A stretch of 64,000 bases of DNA from Dyella sp. A6. Lineage in GTDB: Bacteria; Pseudomonadota; Gammaproteobacteria; Xanthomonadales; Rhodanobacteraceae. The DNA lies in contig NZ_CP132911.1 in the NCBI RefSeq assembly GCF_036320485.1, forward strand, positions 2,170,001-2,234,000, written 5' to 3'. Below, in pieces: positions 31,891 to 42,362 of the stretch. A program made the position numbers and the translations under genes. Positions within the stretch are counted from its first letter, which is position 1. Each line of letters opens with the position of its first letter. The notes under the pieces are model-generated. The model saw nothing but the letters and a program-made list of their open reading frames with translations, was not told the origin of the DNA and made no database searches.

Positions 31891-32000
<110 letters not shown>

Positions 32001-32057: not shown

Positions 32058-32150
32058 TGGCGGAGAGGGCGGGATTCGAACCCGCGATACGGGTATAAGC
32101 CGTATACACACTTTCCAGGCGTGCTCCTTCAACCACTCGGACACCTCTCC
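32058..32150 (-). tRNA. tRNA-Ser (GGA)
   Basis: This 93-nt gene has a GGAGAGG/CCTCTCC acceptor stem, a long variable arm (TATACGGCTTATACCCGTAT) and the T loop GTTCGAATC, all of the serine type. The anticodon in CTGGAAA is GGA, reading UCC and UCU. The 3' CCA is encoded after discriminator G. A promoter and a leader hairpin lie just upstream. Confidence 0.97.
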
Positions 32151-36037: not shown

Positions 36038-36538
36038 TTATCGCACGCCGTTTTCGGACTTGCCGCCGAACGTGCCGAACACCACCAGCATCACCGCACC
36101 TACCGTAATGCCGCAGTCGGCCAGGTTGAACACCGGGTAATGCCACTGCCGATAGTAGACGTCGATGAAGTCGGTCACCTGCCCGGCATGCAGGCGATCG
36201 ATCAGGTTGCCCAGCGCGCCGCCGATGATCAGCGCCAGCGGCATGGCAGTGCGCCATTCGCGTCGGGCGATGCGCGCCAGCCATACGATCAACAAGGCAG
36301 AGATGACCACCGCCAGCACCACGAACAGCCAGCGCTGCCAGCCGCTGTCATGGGTGAGGAAGCTGAAGGCCGCACCACGGTTGTAGACCAGTGTCCAGTT
36401 CAGGAACCCCGGGATCACCGCACGTGAAGCGCCTGCAACATGCAGCGCGTGCACCATCCACCACTTGCTCAACTGGTCGAGCGCAATGACCACGACGGAA
36501 AGCAGCAACCAGGGCAAGGCATTGGATTTGCGGATCAT
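36038..36538 (-). CDS. lspA: Prolipoprotein signal peptidase
   Basis: This 166-residue inner-membrane aspartyl protease removes lipoprotein signal peptides. It has four hydrophobic helices and the catalytic dyad Asp123 (VTDFIDV) and Asp141 (FNLADCGI). ATG at 36538 is preferred, with GAGTGAG just upstream; a GTG at 36547 three codons earlier has no such site. It follows ileS by about 96 bp, the common ileS-lspA-ispH order. Confidence 0.95.
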   Translation of the reverse strand: MIRKSNALPWLLLSVVVIALDQLSKWWMVHALHVAGASRAVIPGFLNWTLVYNRGAAFSFLTHDSGWQRWLFVVLAVVISALLIVWLARIARREWRTAMPLALIIGGALGNLIDRLHAGQVTDFIDVYYRQWHYPVFNLADCGITVGAVMLVVFGTFGGKSENGVR

Positions 36539-36634
36539 GAATCTCACTCAATGGATCGGTGCGAACCCGTACCGCACCGGAGCGCGGCCGGGCATGGGCG
36601 TGACTGACAGACCAGCCGGATGGCAAACCGTTCG

Positions 36635-39496
36635 CTAGAACCAGCGCCGCGTTTCGCCGGCGCCATCCACATTGCTGACGCAGCGACCGCAGAGTTCCGG
36701 ATGATCGGCGTGCTGACCGACATCATCACGGCGATGCCAGCAACGCACGCACTTGGCCGCCTCGCTGACCGTGGCCGAGACCCACACATCGGCACCTTCC
36801 AGCTCGGTAAGCACCGCGTCTTCGGGTTGACCGCCGGCCTTGTCCAGGCGCACGTCGGAAGTGATGAAGAAGAAGCGCAGCTCGTCCATCGCAGGCGCGT
36901 AACGGGCCACGGTGGCCTCGTCCGCATGGATGGCCAGCTTCGCCTCCAGCGCGGCGCCGATGCGTTCGGCCTTGCGCATGCCTTCGAGCACCCGTGCCGC
37001 GGTTTCGCGAACCGCCAGCAGATCGGTCCACCAGCGACGCTGGTCGGGCGATCCCTGCGTGGACACCAGACCGTCGTACCAGGTTTCGAACAGCACGCTC
37101 TCGCCGCGCTCGCCGGGCAGGTGACGCCAGATCTCCTCGGCGGTGAAGCCCAGGATCGGCGCCAGCCAGCGCACCAGCGCCTCGGCGATGCGGTACATCG
37201 CACTCTGCGCGCTGCGCCGGCCGTGGCTGTCGGTCGGCATGGTGTAGAGGCGGTCCTTGGTGATATCCAGGTACAGCGCGCCCATCTCGTTGGTGCAGAA
37301 GTTCTGCACGCGTGCCACCACTTCGGGGAAGTCGTAACGTTCGTAGGCGGCGACCACCGCCTGCTGCACATCGTAGGCCTGCTGTACCGCCCACTGGTCG
37401 AGCGGCAGGCTGTCCTCGACCTTCACCAGGTGCTTGGTCGGATCGAAGCCATCCAGGTTGCCGAGCAGGAAGCGCGCGGTGTTGCGCAGGCGGCGGTAGC
37501 TGTCCGACACGCGCTTGAGGATCTCGTCGGAGACGCTCATCTCGTTGCGGTAGTCGGCCGATGCCACCCACAGGCGCAGCACGTCGGCACCCAGCGTGTC
37601 CATCACCTTCTGCGGCGCCACCACGTTGCCGAGCGACTTCGACATCTTGCGACCCTGCGCATCCACGGTGAAACCGTGGGTGAGCACGTCGTCGTAGGGC
37701 GCGCGGCCATGGATCGCACTGGAAGTGAGCAGCGAGGACTGGAACCAGCCGCGATGCTGGTCCGAGCCTTCGAGATACATCACCTTGTATTCGTGCGCGT
37801 CGCCCTGCTGCAGTTCCGGTCGTTGGCCGATCACGCCGAAATGGGTCACGCCGGAGTCGAACCAGACATCCAGCACATCGGTGACCTTGTCGTAGTCCTT
37901 CGCCTGATCGCCCAGCAGCTCGACCGGGTCCAGGTCGTACCATGCGTCGATGCCGCCCTGCTCCATCCGCCCGGCTACCTGTTCCATCAGCGCCACGGAA
38001 TCCGGATGCGGCTCCTGCGTCGCCTTGTGCACGAACAGCGCGATCGGCACCCCCCAGGTGCGCTGGCGACTGATGCACCAGTCCGGACGACCGGCCACCA
38101 TGCCGGCGATGCGCTCTTCGCCCCAGCCCGGCACCCAGCGCACGTCCTTGATCGACTTCAGCGCGGTGGCGCGCAGGCCGGCCTGTTCCATGCCGATGAA
38201 CCACTGCGGCGTGGCGCGGTAGATCACCGGCGTCTTGTGGCGCCAGCAGTTCGGGTAGCTGTGCTCGATCTTCGCGTGCGCCAGCAGCACGCCGCGGGCA
38301 CGCAGCAGCTCGACGATGGCGTCATTGGCCTTCCAGATGTGCATGCCGGCCAGGTCGAGTTCGCCGGCCTTCGGCGTGTCCTCACGGTAGGTGCCGCGCG
38401 TGCCGATATAGTTGAGCAGGCCGATGCCGTTTTCGCGGCCGACCACGAAGTCTTCCACGCCATGGTCGGGCGAGGTATGTACCGCACCGGTACCGTCCTC
38501 GGCGCTGACGTGGTCGCCAAGGATGACCGGAACGATGCGTTCGTAGAACGGATGACGAAGCTGCACGCCGTCGAGTGCGGCGCCGACCGCATGTCCCAGC
38601 ACCACGGGCGACTCGATGCCATAGCGCTGCAGCGCCTTGTCCACCAGCGCGGCGGCGACCACCAGCAGCACGCGACGACCGTCGCGCGCGGGACCTTCCA
38701 CCAGCGCGTATTCCAGCTCGGCACCCAGCGACACGGCCTGGCTTTCCGGCAGCGTCCATGGCGTGGTGGTCCAGATCGGGATGGCGACGATAGCATCACC
38801 GGCATCCACGCCGAACTTCGCCGCCAGGGCCTTGGCGTCGACCGCATCGTAGGCCACGTCCACCGCCGGCGAGGTCTTGTCGCCGTACTCGATTTCCGCC
38901 TCGGCCAGCGCCGAGCCGCAGTCGAAACACCAGTACACCGGCTTGGCGCCGCGCACCACATGACCATTGCCGACGATACGTGCCAGCGCGCGCACCATGG
39001 ACGCTTCGTACTTGAAGTCCATCGTGCGGTACGGGTTCTCCCAGTCGCCCAGCACACCCAGTCGCTTGAACCCGGCACGCTGGGTATCGACCTGCTCGGC
39101 GGCGTACTCGCGGCACTTCTGGCGGAAGGCACGGGCATCGAGCTTTTCGCCCGGCTTGCCATGCTGCTTTTCCACGGCGATTTCGATCGGCAGACCGTGG
39201 CAGTCCCAGCCCGGCACGTACGGCGCGCGATAGCCAGCCATCAGCTTCGAGCGCACCACCATGTCCTTGAGGATCTTGTTGACGGCATGACCGATATGGA
39301 TGGCCCCGTTAGCATAGGGCGGGCCGTCATGCAGCACGAAAGCCTTGTCGCGACCGGCAGTCTCCGCCTGGATCTGCGCATAACGCCCCACCTGCTCCCA
39401 CTCGGCCAGCCAGCCCGGCTCGCGCTTGGGCAGGTCGCCGCGCATCGGGAAATCCGTCTGCGGCAGGTTGATGGTGCTCTTGTAGTCCTTGGTCAT
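36635..39496 (-). CDS. ileS: Isoleucyl-tRNA synthetase
   Basis: This 953-residue class I synthetase charges tRNA-Ile. It has [11 protein letters not shown] (60-70), a KMSKS loop (617-621), a CP1 editing domain, and two C-terminal zinc-finger pairs (CVRCW, CGRC). I chose ATG at 39496 ([20 protein letters not shown]), where the E. coli-like start lies; ATG at 39511 adds MAPEA. It is preceded by an isoleucine-rich leader ORF and a hairpin pressed close to the start, which suggest regulation by charged tRNA-Ile. Confidence 0.96.
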
Positions 39497-39516
39497 CGCT
39501 TCGGGTGCCATCTGTG

Positions 39517-39634
39517 GGCCGTCGCCATGACGGCCTCGTCGTTGTCTCGCCCCGATGCCCTCGACCGGACCCCGAAGCGCCGTTCTACCGCCCGACGCGC
39601 GCGGCGACAGGCGCTCGCGCTGCGGGCGGATGCC
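39517..39634 (-). promoter_or_regulatory. Possible attenuator-like structures between leader ORF and ileS
   Basis: After the leader ORF, CCGCCCG (39623-39629) can pair with CGGGCGG (39588-39594). Alternatively GAGCGCC (39610-39616) can pair with GGCGCTT (39574-39581), which would disrupt the first. A third hairpin GGCCGTC/GACGGCC with a 5-nt loop (39517-39535) ends 5 nt before the upstream ileS ATG. No T-run follows any of these, so control would be by translation or Rho rather than by an intrinsic terminator. Base pairings are seen; function is inferred. Confidence 0.5.
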
Positions 39635-39715
39635 TCAAATAATAATGATCGTCACGACGGCGCGGACGCGGCCATCGTTGGCGTATTTCGGATTGGACGT
39701 GTCGCGGGTAGTCAT
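39635..39715 (-). CDS. Putative isoleucine-rich leader peptide of ileS
   Basis: This 26-codon ORF lies between ribF and ileS. ATG at 39715 overlaps the ribF TGA as ATGA, so it needs no ribosome site of its own. The peptide starts MTTRDTSNPK and ends AVVTIIII directly before TGA. The four isoleucine codons are ATC ATT ATT ATT; ATT is uncommon in this GC-rich window, where ATC dominates. Stalling there when charged tRNA-Ile is scarce could change folding of the 118-nt RNA before ileS. It may instead be a chance AT-rich patch. Confidence 0.6.
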   Translation of the reverse strand: MTTRDTSNPKYANDGRVRAVVTIIII

Positions 39716-40665
39716 GCGCGGGCCAGTACCGGATTCATGCCCAGGATTTCCCGGGCCGAGCGCGCATCATGATCCATCTGCGCCTTCAATGCATCCAGCC
39801 CGTCGAATTTCTGCTCGTCGCGCAGCTTGGCCACAAACTCCACCGCCATGCGCCGGCCATACAAATCGCCGGCGAAATCGAACAGGTGCACTTCCAGCAG
39901 TGGCTCGCTGACCTGGTTCACGGTGGGACGCACGCCCAGGCTGGCCACACCCGGCCAGCTGCATTCGCTTTCGCCCAGCCCAACGCGCACCGCGAAAATG
40001 CCCTGTACCGGGCTCACCCGGTCATGCAGGTGGATATTGGCGGTGGGAAACCCCAGCGTGCGACCGAGCTGGTTACCCCGCTCGACCCGGCCCTCGATCA
40101 CGAACGGGCGCCCCAGCAGAGCCGCCGCCCCGGCAAACTCGCCAGCGGCCAGCAGCAGGCGCACCCGGCTGGCCGAGACGCGGCTGTCATCCAGCAGCAC
40201 CGACGGCATCGTTCGCGCGGTGAAGCCGAGCTCACTGCCCAGCCGCTCCAGCATCGCCACGTCACCGGCACGGCCGTGGCCGAAACGGAAATCGGCACCC
40301 ACCCAGACCTCCCGTGCAGCCAGGCGCCCGACCAGCACCTGCCGCACGAAGTCCTCGGCGGACATCGCGGTCAGCGCGGCATTGAAGCGCAACAGCAGGG
40401 TCTGCTCGATACCTGCGGCGCCGAGCCCCTGCAGCTTTTCGCGCACGCTGGAAAGGCGCGGCAACGGCTCGCGCGAGAAAAAGGCGCGCGGCAACGGCTC
40501 GAAACTCACCACCACCGGTGCGCAACCCAGCTCGGCCGCGCGCACGCGCACCTCGGCCAGCAAGGCCTGGTGTCCTCGGTGCAGGCCATCGAAAGCGCCA
40601 ACCGCGATCACGCTGCCGCGCGGAGCCAGGCATGGCCCCGCGGTATCCCGGGCAAGTCTCATCAT
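39712..40665 (-). CDS. ribF: Bifunctional riboflavin kinase/FAD synthetase
   Basis: This enzyme turns riboflavin into FMN and then FAD. The N-terminal nucleotidyltransferase motif GAFDGLHRGHQALL is present, and the C-terminal riboflavin-kinase domain holds GRTLGFPTANI. ATG at 40665 (317 residues) and the next codon at 40662 are equal candidates. No ribosome site precedes them, but TATACT lies about 7 bp upstream (40672-40677, minus strand), so the message may be almost leaderless. The stop overlaps the leader ORF. Confidence 0.94.
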   Translation of the reverse strand: MMRLARDTAGPCLAPRGSVIAVGAFDGLHRGHQALLAEVRVRAAELGCAPVVVSFEPLPRAFFSREPLPRLSSVREKLQGLGAAGIEQTLLLRFNAALTAMSAEDFVRQVLVGRLAAREVWVGADFRFGHGRAGDVAMLERLGSELGFTARTMPSVLLDDSRVSASRVRLLLAAGEFAGAAALLGRPFVIEGRVERGNQLGRTLGFPTANIHLHDRVSPVQGIFAVRVGLGESECSWPGVASLGVRPTVNQVSEPLLEVHLFDFAGDLYGRRMAVEFVAKLRDEQKFDGLDALKAQMDHDARSAREILGMNPVLARA

Positions 40666-40754
40666 GGCGTGAGTATAACGGGCCGCCCCGTCAGGCGCCG
40701 ACACTCATGCGCCGACACGGGGCGAGCGTACGGGCCGACTGCGGGCCTTCGGGG

Positions 40755-42362
40755 TCAACTGGCGCGCAGGTCGCGCAGGCGCAGGCCAGAGACGAAAAGC
40801 CCTGCCACATAGGTCGCGCCACCGGTCAGCACCAGCACCGCCAGGTGCCACACGCGCGTCCACACCGGCACCGTGGTCCAGTGCGGCCAGCACCAGCGCC
40901 CGACCAGCAGCACCGCCACCATTGCCGCGCAGGCAAAGCCCAGGCGTGACCAGTGCCGCAGCCAGCCCGGCTGCGGGTCGTAGACACCGGCACGCTTCAG
41001 CCAGTACCAGAGCTGCGCGAACTGCAGGTAATTGGAAAGCACGCTGGCGATCGCCAGACCCACGTGCAGTCCGGGCACATGGGCCAGACCATGCAGCCAG
41101 CCATCCTGACGCTGGACCGGGGTTGTCCATAGCTCATAAAGCAGGCCCACCAGCAACACGTTGAAGACCATGTTGCTGACCAGCGACACCACCGCCGCGC
41201 GGACTGGCGTGCGCGTATCCTGGCGCGCGTAAAACGCCGGCAACAGCACCTTCACCAGTGCGTAGGCAGGCACGCCACAGCACAACGCCATGGTCGACCA
41301 CGAGGTCATGCGGGTATCGAACGCGGTGTAATGCCCGTTCTGGAAGAACGTGCTGACCAGCGGCTCGGCCAGCAGCAGCAGTGCGCAGGTCGCCGGCACC
41401 GCAATCAGCAGGGTCATGCGCACCCCCCAGTCCAGCGCCTTCGAGAAACCCGCACGATCGGTGCCGACATGGTGACGCGACAGTGCCGGCAGGATCACCG
41501 CCCCAAGCGCTACTCCGAACACACCAAGCGGCAGTTCGAGGAAACGGGTGGATTGATACATCCAGGTCTGCGAACCGGTGACCAGCAGGGTGATCAGAAT
41601 GGTATCCAGCAGCAGGTTGAGCTGGCCTACCGAGGCCCCGAACAGGGTCGGCACCATCAGACGCATGATCCGGCGCACCAGCGGGTGCCGCCAGCCCCAG
41701 CGCGGCAGACTCAGCAGATTCAGTCCGCGCAATGCAGGCAGCAGGAACAACAGCTGCAGCACCCCCGCCACCAGCACGGCCCAGCCGAGCGCCATGATCG
41801 GTACCTGCAGCCGTGGCGCCAGCCACAACGCCCCCGTGATCATGCAGATGTTCAGGATCACCGGCGCCATCGCCGGCAGACCGAAGCGGTGGAAACTGTT
41901 CAGCGCGCCGCCGGCCAGGGCCGTCAGCGAGACGAACAGCAGGTACGGGAACGTCAAGCGCAACAGGCTGACGATCAGCCCGAACTTATGCGGGTCGTGC
42001 ACGTCGCCCGGCGCGAAGACCGCGGCCAGTTCCGGCGCGAACAGCATGCCCAGCGCGGTGACGACCAGCAGTACGCCGCCGAGAGTCCCCGCCACCCGCG
42101 CCGTGAGTTCCTTCAACTCGGCATGACTGCGTGTTTCCTTGACCTCGGTGAATACCGGCACGAAGGCCGTGGAAAAGGAGCCTTCCGCGAACAGGCGGCG
42201 CATGAAATTGGGGATACGAAAGGCGATGACAAAGGCATCGGTCGCCGCCGAGGCGCCGAACACGTGGCTCATTGCGATGTCGCGTGCCAGCCCCAGCACG
42301 CGTGAAACCATGGTCATGCTGCTGAACGAGAGCAGCCCGCGGAGCATGCTGGGGGACTTCAT
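40755..42362 (-). CDS. murJ: Lipid II flippase MurJ (MviN)
   Basis: This 535-residue MOP-superfamily protein moves lipid II across the inner membrane for peptidoglycan synthesis. It has about 14 membrane helices and the usual opening LLSFSSMTMVSRVLGLARDI, with the ATDAFVIAFRIPNFMRRLFAEG segment that follows in all MurJ. ATG at 42362 fits homology; a longer frame upstream is unrelated. It precedes ribF by 89 bp, as in many gammaproteobacteria, and is divergent from rpsT. Confidence 0.95.
   Translation of the reverse strand: MKSPSMLRGLLSFSSMTMVSRVLGLARDIAMSHVFGASAATDAFVIAFRIPNFMRRLFAEGSFSTAFVPVFTEVKETRSHAELKELTARVAGTLGGVLLVVTALGMLFAPELAAVFAPGDVHDPHKFGLIVSLLRLTFPYLLFVSLTALAGGALNSFHRFGLPAMAPVILNICMITGALWLAPRLQVPIMALGWAVLVAGVLQLLFLLPALRGLNLLSLPRWGWRHPLVRRIMRLMVPTLFGASVGQLNLLLDTILITLLVTGSQTWMYQSTRFLELPLGVFGVALGAVILPALSRHHVGTDRAGFSKALDWGVRMTLLIAVPATCALLLLAEPLVSTFFQNGHYTAFDTRMTSWSTMALCCGVPAYALVKVLLPAFYARQDTRTPVRAAVVSLVSNMVFNVLLVGLLYELWTTPVQRQDGWLHGLAHVPGLHVGLAIASVLSNYLQFAQLWYWLKRAGVYDPQPGWLRHWSRLGFACAAMVAVLLVGRWCWPHWTTVPVWTRVWHLAVLVLTGGATYVAGLFVSGLRLRDLRAS

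Follow-up and report, generated by a model that had tools for sequence, protein, structure and literature searches.

RESULTS

Between ribF and ileS, six genera of one family of the Xanthomonadales carry a short open reading frame (ORF) that closes with a string of isoleucine codons, and the best explanation of this ORF and of the hairpins behind its stop codon, one that we consider fairly likely, is an intercistronic leader-peptide attenuator that controls the gene for isoleucyl-tRNA synthetase. The locus was analyzed in a 64,000-nucleotide stretch of Dyella sp. A6 (the window; Table 1) and in its relatives. According to this explanation, a ribosome would enter the leader ORF either from ribF, through an ATGA overlap, or at the ORF's own start site, and would have to decode a run of Ile codons written ATT just before the leader stop. 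If charged tRNA-Ile is scarce, the ribosome would stall on the run, leaving region 2 free to form helix 2:3, which would block hairpin 3:4 and raise the expression of ileS; if Ile-tRNA is plentiful, a ribosome at the stop would cover the foot of region 2, allowing 3:4 to form and ileS expression to fall. Hairpin 3:4 would act either on transcription (in which case without a U-tract and perhaps with Rho) or on the translation of ileS. Translation of the leader, stalling within it, and the exchange between 2:3 and 3:4 are steps that we infer.

Table 1. Features of the ribF-ileS region in window coordinates (A2, alignment of 33 sequences)
Feature	Position	Strand	Evidence or remark
ribF, gene upstream of leader	39712..40704	-	NF004159 (NCBIfam), 395 bits, cut-off 306
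Leader ORF, 26 codons and TGA, MTTRDTSNPKYANDGRVRAVVTIIII	39635..39715	-	In-frame homologues in 36 genomes, including the window's own
Control codons ATC ATT ATT ATT (Ile x4), abutting the stop	39638..39649	-	Last three are ATT in 31, 33, and 31 of 33 sequences
Region 2, 5' strand of alternative helix 2:3	39617..39625	-	A2 columns 27-35; helix 2:3 with 82.2% of cells paired
Hairpin Ib	39590..39612 (arms 39612-39604, 39598-39590)	-	A2 columns 40-48/55-63; 98.6% of cells paired; two pairs changed on both sides
Region 3, shared strand, partner of 2, 4, or 5	39572..39580	-	A2 columns 77-85
Region 4, 3' strand of hairpin 3:4	39548..39555	-	A2 columns 107-114; 92.2% of cells paired
Extra hairpin P4 (GGCCGTC/GACGGCC), before ileS start	39517..39535	-	A2, by eye; absent from some relatives
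Region 5, CCCGAAGCG, directly before likely ileS ATG, candidate partner of region 3	39497..39505	-	Weak
ileS, likely start at second ATG (39496)	36635..39496 (first ATG, 39511)	-	TIGR00392, 886 bits, cut-off 621; start by conservation
lspA, neighbour	36038-36547		NCBIfam

A conserved leader ORF with isoleucine codons before its stop

The original prediction had described a 26-codon ORF on the minus strand whose ATGA overlaps the ribF stop, and both its position and its reading agree with the window sequence, in which the ORF closes with GTC GTG ACG ATC ATT ATT ATT TGA. The rarity of ATT noted there is borne out by the adjacent genes, since the isoleucine codons of ileS and ribF together comprise 42 ATC, a single ATT, and no ATA; with ATT at 1 of 43, three consecutive ATT codons are therefore not ordinary codon use. 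The first ATG of ileS is present only in the window and one other sequence (L002 and L014, respectively) among the 33 aligned members, and the second is probably the true start, as judged by this comparison. Transcription of ribF together with the leader and ileS is probable. Elsewhere in the window, a small SRP RNA and a tRNA gene lie at 31896-31992 and 32061-32150 on the minus strand.

All 36 members (33 aligned and 3 with an insertion) have a ribF-proximal ATG in frame with the Ile run, and the ORF spans 22 to 34 codons in the 33 that are aligned. The start is an ATGA in each of the 20 members of the first set; the other 13 place the leader ATG at -4, +4, +9, or +11 nt from the end of the ribF stop, with no earlier ATG in the spacer between ribF and leader, and overlap with ribF is therefore not needed. 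Within the run, the codon second from the stop is invariant, and those on either side of it give way in two sequences each, to ATC at the codon next to the stop and to ATG at the third. The fourth codon is more variable (ATC in 26, GTC in 4, ATT in 2, and AAC in 1 of the 33), and the stop is TGA in 31 and TAA in 2. All four isoleucines are kept in 26 of the 33 aligned members, and every one of the 33 has at least three within its last five codons.

Upstream of the run, substitutions fall evenly over the three codon positions (84:83:79 among 25 close and non-independent pairs), and the peptide thus appears unconstrained in sequence, which is also the case for known leaders. By chance alone, an in-frame stretch would be open with a probability of about 0.28 per independent length, and the +2 frame is also open in 31 of 33 sequences, so that openness alone proves little. 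Judged by comparison of these sequences, the leader ORF is real and conserved. Its Ile codons suggest that it senses isoleucine shortage, and this sensing half of the attenuator is well supported. Both ATT and ATC are read by tRNA-Ile(GAU); charging alone would therefore not distinguish them.

That the frame from ribF to the run is maintained despite changes in length also argues against an incidental ORF overlying a DNA element (either a promoter -10 box serving ileS or a Fur-like site), an alternative that we regard as unlikely. It draws on the -10-like TATTAT within the run, on the retention of ATT even at the third codon position, and on the sister genus g23, in which the same gap contains a -10-like box with a GC-rich hairpin behind it. 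But neither a sigma-70-like site nor a sigma-70 promoter was found in the window, the sequence upstream of the patch is variable with no -35 seen by eye, and TATTAT is itself broken in two loci (L032 and L330, which read ATG ATT ATT); moreover, the stop is kept by means of either TGA or TAA, and ATT and ATC do exchange. A Fur box was rejected as an account of the AT-rich patch, in which, by eye, about half of the consensus 19-mer is present and the left half absent. The exact ATYATYATYATYTRA recurs at only one site elsewhere in the window's genome (G000:C1:2740035-2740049, minus strand; L170), which we take by eye to be a Fur-like box in front of a hemP-like ORF.

In g23, which includes Rhodanobacter glycinis, the motif TTCCGG-N15-19-TAA[CG]TT, with a short GC hairpin behind it, occurs in 8 of 15 ribF-ileS gaps (L048, L052, L053, L054, L063, L064, L069, and L070), and from its sequence it is perhaps a promoter of ileS that takes the leader's place.

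The 3' end of ribF (window 39712-39920, minus strand) has low values at synonymous sites in the leader clade, 0.07 to 0.2 over the last 70 codons versus roughly 0.3 to 0.5 in the first half, in a comparison in which the other groups cover the last 47 to 108 codons only and also vary along the gene. From these sequences, the unusual conservation perhaps reflects an overlapping signal.

Matches to the leader are confined to a few genera

A first pass over the window's family, comprising 233 genomes, 40 fetched regions, and 80 named loci, had already placed the leader, besides the window's genus, in g7 (4 of 4), g14 (1 of 1), and g16 (1 of 1, Frateuria sp. Soil773). A covariance model built from the first 20 aligned sequences (alignment A1) and run in Infernal with stricter filters, at which weak matches are lost, matches 39 of the 233 genomes, 36 of them at ileS. 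The leader is thereby placed between ribF and ileS in 36 of the 38 genomes of six genera: the window's own (g1, 14 of 15) and, within the same family, g7 (4 of 4), g8 (15 of 16), g14, g16, and g26 (1 of 1 each). No ileS outside these genera was matched among the 233 genomes with these filters, and most relatives in the family are without the element. Partial matches in three genomes (G042, G153, and G227) and a second match in G091 have no ileS start that could be found beside them. A sample of 250 genomes from across the order yielded nine matches, all within g1, g7, g8, and g16. Because the matches are confined to a few genera, the element is clade-specific at this sensitivity. In the g1 genome without the leader (G006; 1.5 Mb in 210 contigs), a different sequence fills the roughly 160 nt of upstream DNA available on its contig.

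When the 300 nt upstream of ileS were scanned for short ORFs having at least four Ile in six codons, the scan returned 18 of the 20 loci of the first clade set (0.0 expected from shuffles), missing only L015 (III) and L032 (IMII), and none of 51 sister Xanthomonadales loci. A further 61 named loci (L108-L168) likewise gave no hit, with 0.2 expected, and a sample of the phylum gave 5 of 40. The original prediction had looked to conservation across the Xanthomonadales for its support; the ORF frame, the Ile run, and ATT are indeed kept in the six genera, but neither the sister loci nor the bulk of the order sample extends this pattern.

On a tree of IleS N-terminal sequences, the presence or absence of the leader requires four changes, and the leader may have a single origin. 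The IleS N termini of g8 and g26 (L320-L330) sit on a long branch (0.53), apart from the other leader-bearing genera despite the common leader, which we read as replacement of ileS or as fast change.

Hairpins behind the leader stop

RNAalifold, when given no structure, finds two hairpins in A2, namely, Ib (columns 40-48/55-63) and 3:4 (columns 79-88/103-113), and does not return helix 2:3 from these 33 sequences; applied to the 20 sequences of A1, it returns the outer part of 2:3 along with Ib and does not return 3:4. Pairs are exchanged within both A2 hairpins: in Ib, 42-61 is CG in 19, UA in 11, and UG in 2 sequences and 45-58 is CG in 26 and UA in 5; in 3:4, both 81-111 and 82-110 occur as UG, UA, and CG. 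Helix 2:3 has one pair changed on both sides in A2, and the window's own copy of Ib contains one U-U mismatch. Like the ORF, its run of Ile codons in ATT, and its position, conserved hairpins Ib and 3:4 can be read directly from the aligned sequences.

Taken together, 2:3 and Ib have 90.3% of cells paired and a covariation score of 0.149 versus 0.110 in shuffled alignments, and 3:4 scores 0.272 versus 0.213; none of 500 shuffles reaches the observed score in either case. More conservative measures find no excess: the pairs changed on both sides (three for 2:3 and Ib, one for 3:4) are equaled in 86 and 48 of 500 shuffles, respectively, and the numbers of pair types in 474 and 495. Sliding the partner strands by one to three columns lowers pairing from 90-92% to 28-58%. 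Pairing is therefore well kept and covariation moderate, with a score perhaps inflated by the relatedness of the sequences. Strands 2, 4, and 5 are alike, each being complementary to strand 3 (e.g., CCGAAGC, GCTTCGG, and CGAAGC in g8 and CCGAGGCGC, GCGCCTCGG, and CGAGGCG in L036). For 3:5, 84.5% of cells are paired and the score is 0.064 versus 0.038 (5 of 500 shuffles), with region 5 shortened in 5 of 20 sequences. For the window's own stretch, predicted folding does not surpass that of shuffled sequences (z of 0.21). Two other candidates were rejected: an outer helix, P1 (A1 columns 22-29/56-63), whose covariation is not above that of shuffles, and a helix S between the 3' strand of 3:4 and the ileS start, which shows none.

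In three g8 genomes (G084, G086, and G096; loci L333, L334, and L335), Ib is interrupted by a repeat that folds on itself and measures roughly 270 nt or more; it spares the leader ORF and strands 2, 3, and 4 and has a fold z of -19.6 with its flanks. The distance from the leader stop to the ileS ATG is 382 to 422 nt in these genomes versus 91 to 149 nt in the 33 other members. The repeat has 25, 11, and 32 matches (counted as matches and not as copies) in the three genomes and 18 in G092, and none in a plasmid search; its matches to miRNA-named Rfam families were dismissed as due to generic long hairpins.

Could the hairpins themselves be what matters, as the site of an RNA-binding protein or as a processing or stability element, the Ile codons merely keeping the region unstructured? 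The high conservation of Ib and its foot, and the retention of everything else by the three genomes with a repeat inside Ib, speak for this possibility, which we nevertheless find rather improbable, as it explains neither why Ile codons stand in frame at a stop before the isoleucyl-tRNA synthetase gene nor why Alphaproteobacteria present a parallel (see below). Translation coupling or reinitiation, with the ORF carrying ribosomes from ribF to ileS and sensing nothing, is suggested by the ATGA overlap with ribF in the window and many relatives and by a passage in Korolev et al. (PMC4833913) that proposes reinitiation for leader genes near the main start, but it seems very improbable given that the leader stop and the ileS ATG are 91 to 149 nt apart in 33 members versus a limit of roughly 12 nt in that passage, and it leaves the ATT-Ile run unexplained.

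Predicted folding as the ribosome advances

We next consider how the predicted pairing would change under the attenuator. In the first folding, which stopped short of the ileS coding sequence, the RNA under the ribosome was removed to 11 nt past the codon in the A site. As this codon advances from the first Ile to the stop, the predicted 2:3/3:4 probabilities change from 0.89/0.11 to 0.32/0.68 in g8 (12 sequences) and from 0.87/0.13 to 0.02/0.98 in g16 (1 sequence). Those of g1 (14 sequences) go from 0.67/0.08 to 0.18/0.14, while 3:5 rises from 0.15 to 0.30, and no such flip of helices is seen in g7, g14, or g26. A stricter folding, with 12 nt of ileS included, produces the g8 switch only when the ribosome edge stands at +12 to +16; between edges 0 and +12, L036 and three g8 sequences, 4 of the 33 in total, are the only ones to switch fully, and the window's own sequence shows no switch. 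Since only part of the clade switches in these predictions, the switch is suggested for that part and not for the window, and as a modeled step it is plausible but uneven.

Averaged over the sequences, the predicted accessibility around the ileS start hardly changes with ribosome position (0.42 to 0.45 and 0.33 to 0.44; 20 sequences each). By genus, the accessibility of the ileS ATG between edges 0 and +16 is predicted to rise from 0.09 to 0.38 in g8, from 0.17 to 0.95 in g14, and from 0.39 to 0.85 in g16, in the last of which that of the SD stretch falls from 0.30 to 0.06; in g1 and g7, the ATG is little changed. A start codon that opens once the ribosome has passed to the stop has the wrong sign for a translational mechanism in which stalling raises ileS, and a simple switch by SD sequestration was rejected for this reason (the sign being wrong in g8, g14, and g16) as well as for the flat mean. 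The same result slightly lowered our confidence in the attenuator as a whole. Of the proposed leader that would raise ileS when charged tRNA-Ile is low, the conserved ORF, the Ile run, and the hairpins stand, and it is the raising of ileS that the folding does not bear out. The direction of control is one that we infer by analogy.

No intrinsic terminator was found in window positions 39400-41200, and no T-run follows 3:4, by eye, in any of the 33 rows of A2. The output step toward ileS could be Rho-linked or translational.

A different ileS leader in Alphaproteobacteria

Alphaproteobacteria have a different short ORF upstream of ileS, with peptides, such as MSHVAAIIIRIISPAL, that end in RI..P(A/V) or similar. 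Its DNA is marked by CGAATTA-N4-CCCGG, often with the stop in the loop of a hairpin, and by a closing CCGGG strand. CGAATTA occurs in the last 330 nt before ileS in 29 of the 78 loci scanned (2.1 expected from shuffles) and is followed four bases later by CCCGG in 28 of these 29 (0.0 expected). Five extra loci (L215, L216, L221, L231, and L295) came from motif variants that were written after those loci had been seen. A clear short ORF is missing in a few of the resulting 34 loci (which include L212, L214-L217, L221, L224, L225, L229-L235, L237, L249, L250, L252, L257, L260, L279-L282, L287, and L295-L297, plus others). The RNA alpha_tmRNA is present in all 34 tested genomes of this leader group; among the controls, Caulobacter alone of 14 matched, and two genomes of the window's family had no match. 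A search of eight loci among 11 sources gave no credible Rfam match for the alphaproteobacterial leader and one chance match (E of 2.1).

The two leaders are alike in that a short ORF, Ile-rich in several alphaproteobacterial families, precedes ileS, with a hairpin around or behind the stop and no U-tract in the sequences examined. They differ in the RI..P(A/V) end, the CGAATTA-N4-CCCGG motif, and the frequent position of the stop in a loop, and they have no sequence likeness; the window's element has neither the RI..P end nor CGAATTA-N4-CCCGG. A passage in PMC4117421, a ribosome-profiling study of Caulobacter crescentus, names an "ileS leader CDS" in Caulobacter, CCNA_03934, which may belong to the alphaproteobacterial family. 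With this CDS named and the alphaproteobacterial leader found, the earlier remark that no such control of ileS was known in Gram-negative bacteria proves too strong. Among the matches listed in the open-access literature, no leader peptide for ileS was named in Xanthomonadales, and none in Alphaproteobacteria beyond the PMC4117421 CDS. We offer, as a tentative proposal, that Proteobacteria evolved at least twice (in the Rhodanobacter-Frateuria-like group and in Alphaproteobacteria) ribosome-read Ile leaders for ileS that have no intrinsic terminator and a translational or Rho-linked output.

DISCUSSION

The leader is probably a clade-specific form of leader-peptide attenuation, new as a variant and not categorically new, as the following comparisons make clear.

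(i) Attenuators of the Escherichia coli type. The trp, his, thr, leu, ilv, and pheST systems of E. coli are ribosome-mediated attenuators with leader peptides. The window's leader resembles them in having a run of control codons, cognate to the regulated gene, near its end and in the post-stop hairpins that would share a strand. It differs from them in lying inside an operon, where in many members its start overlaps the stop of the gene before it, in lacking a U-tract terminator, in a run that abuts the stop, and in that it would control ileS. The Leu_leader model (RF00512) has only subthreshold matches in the window's own genome.

(ii) T-boxes. In Firmicutes, ileS is controlled by a T-box, which the leader would resemble in sensing the charging of tRNA-Ile to control ileS, the difference being that the ribosome and not the RNA itself would do the sensing. 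No T-box was matched in the window (at the gathering score) or in six member loci (E of ≤1), nor was any other Rfam family found for the element in these sequences.

(iii) Leaders of other synthetase genes. Passages in PMC1262725 predict that trpS and leuS have attenuators in Streptomyces and that ileS has translational T-boxes in Actinobacteria, one in PMC2965389 predicts His leaders for hisS-like genes in Bacillus, and PMC4117421 includes a leader before trpS in Caulobacter. In all of these except the T-boxes, as in the window, a leader ORF precedes a synthetase gene, and for the Streptomyces and Bacillus cases, the same passages report cognate codons or classical attenuators. These leaders belong to other amino acids and other clades, and those of Streptomyces and Bacillus are predicted there to be attenuators with terminators.

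(iv) mgtQ. This small ORF between mgtC and mgtB of Salmonella is, as outlined in PMC8092293, also a leader within an operon with alternative stem-loops; there, acidic residues and not a Pro codon are needed for the translation of mgtB, and no charging run is involved.

According to Elf and Ehrenberg (PMC1183508), such control gains sensitivity when its control codons are infrequent in bulk mRNA, and this sensitivity requires that specific synonymous codons be chosen; the ATT run fits the first of these points.

If the attenuator reading is correct, an essential synthetase gene within an operon would respond to how fully its own tRNA is charged, by way of a ribosome that stalls at synonymous codons seldom used in the adjacent genes, and no terminator of the usual kind would take part. 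The leader would then offer a testable case of an attenuator that works without a U-tract. It would also suggest that, in lineages lacking T-boxes, control of ileS by tRNA charging has arisen more than once, and if Proteobacteria did evolve such leaders more than once, the two together would constitute the proteobacterial answer to the ileS T-box.
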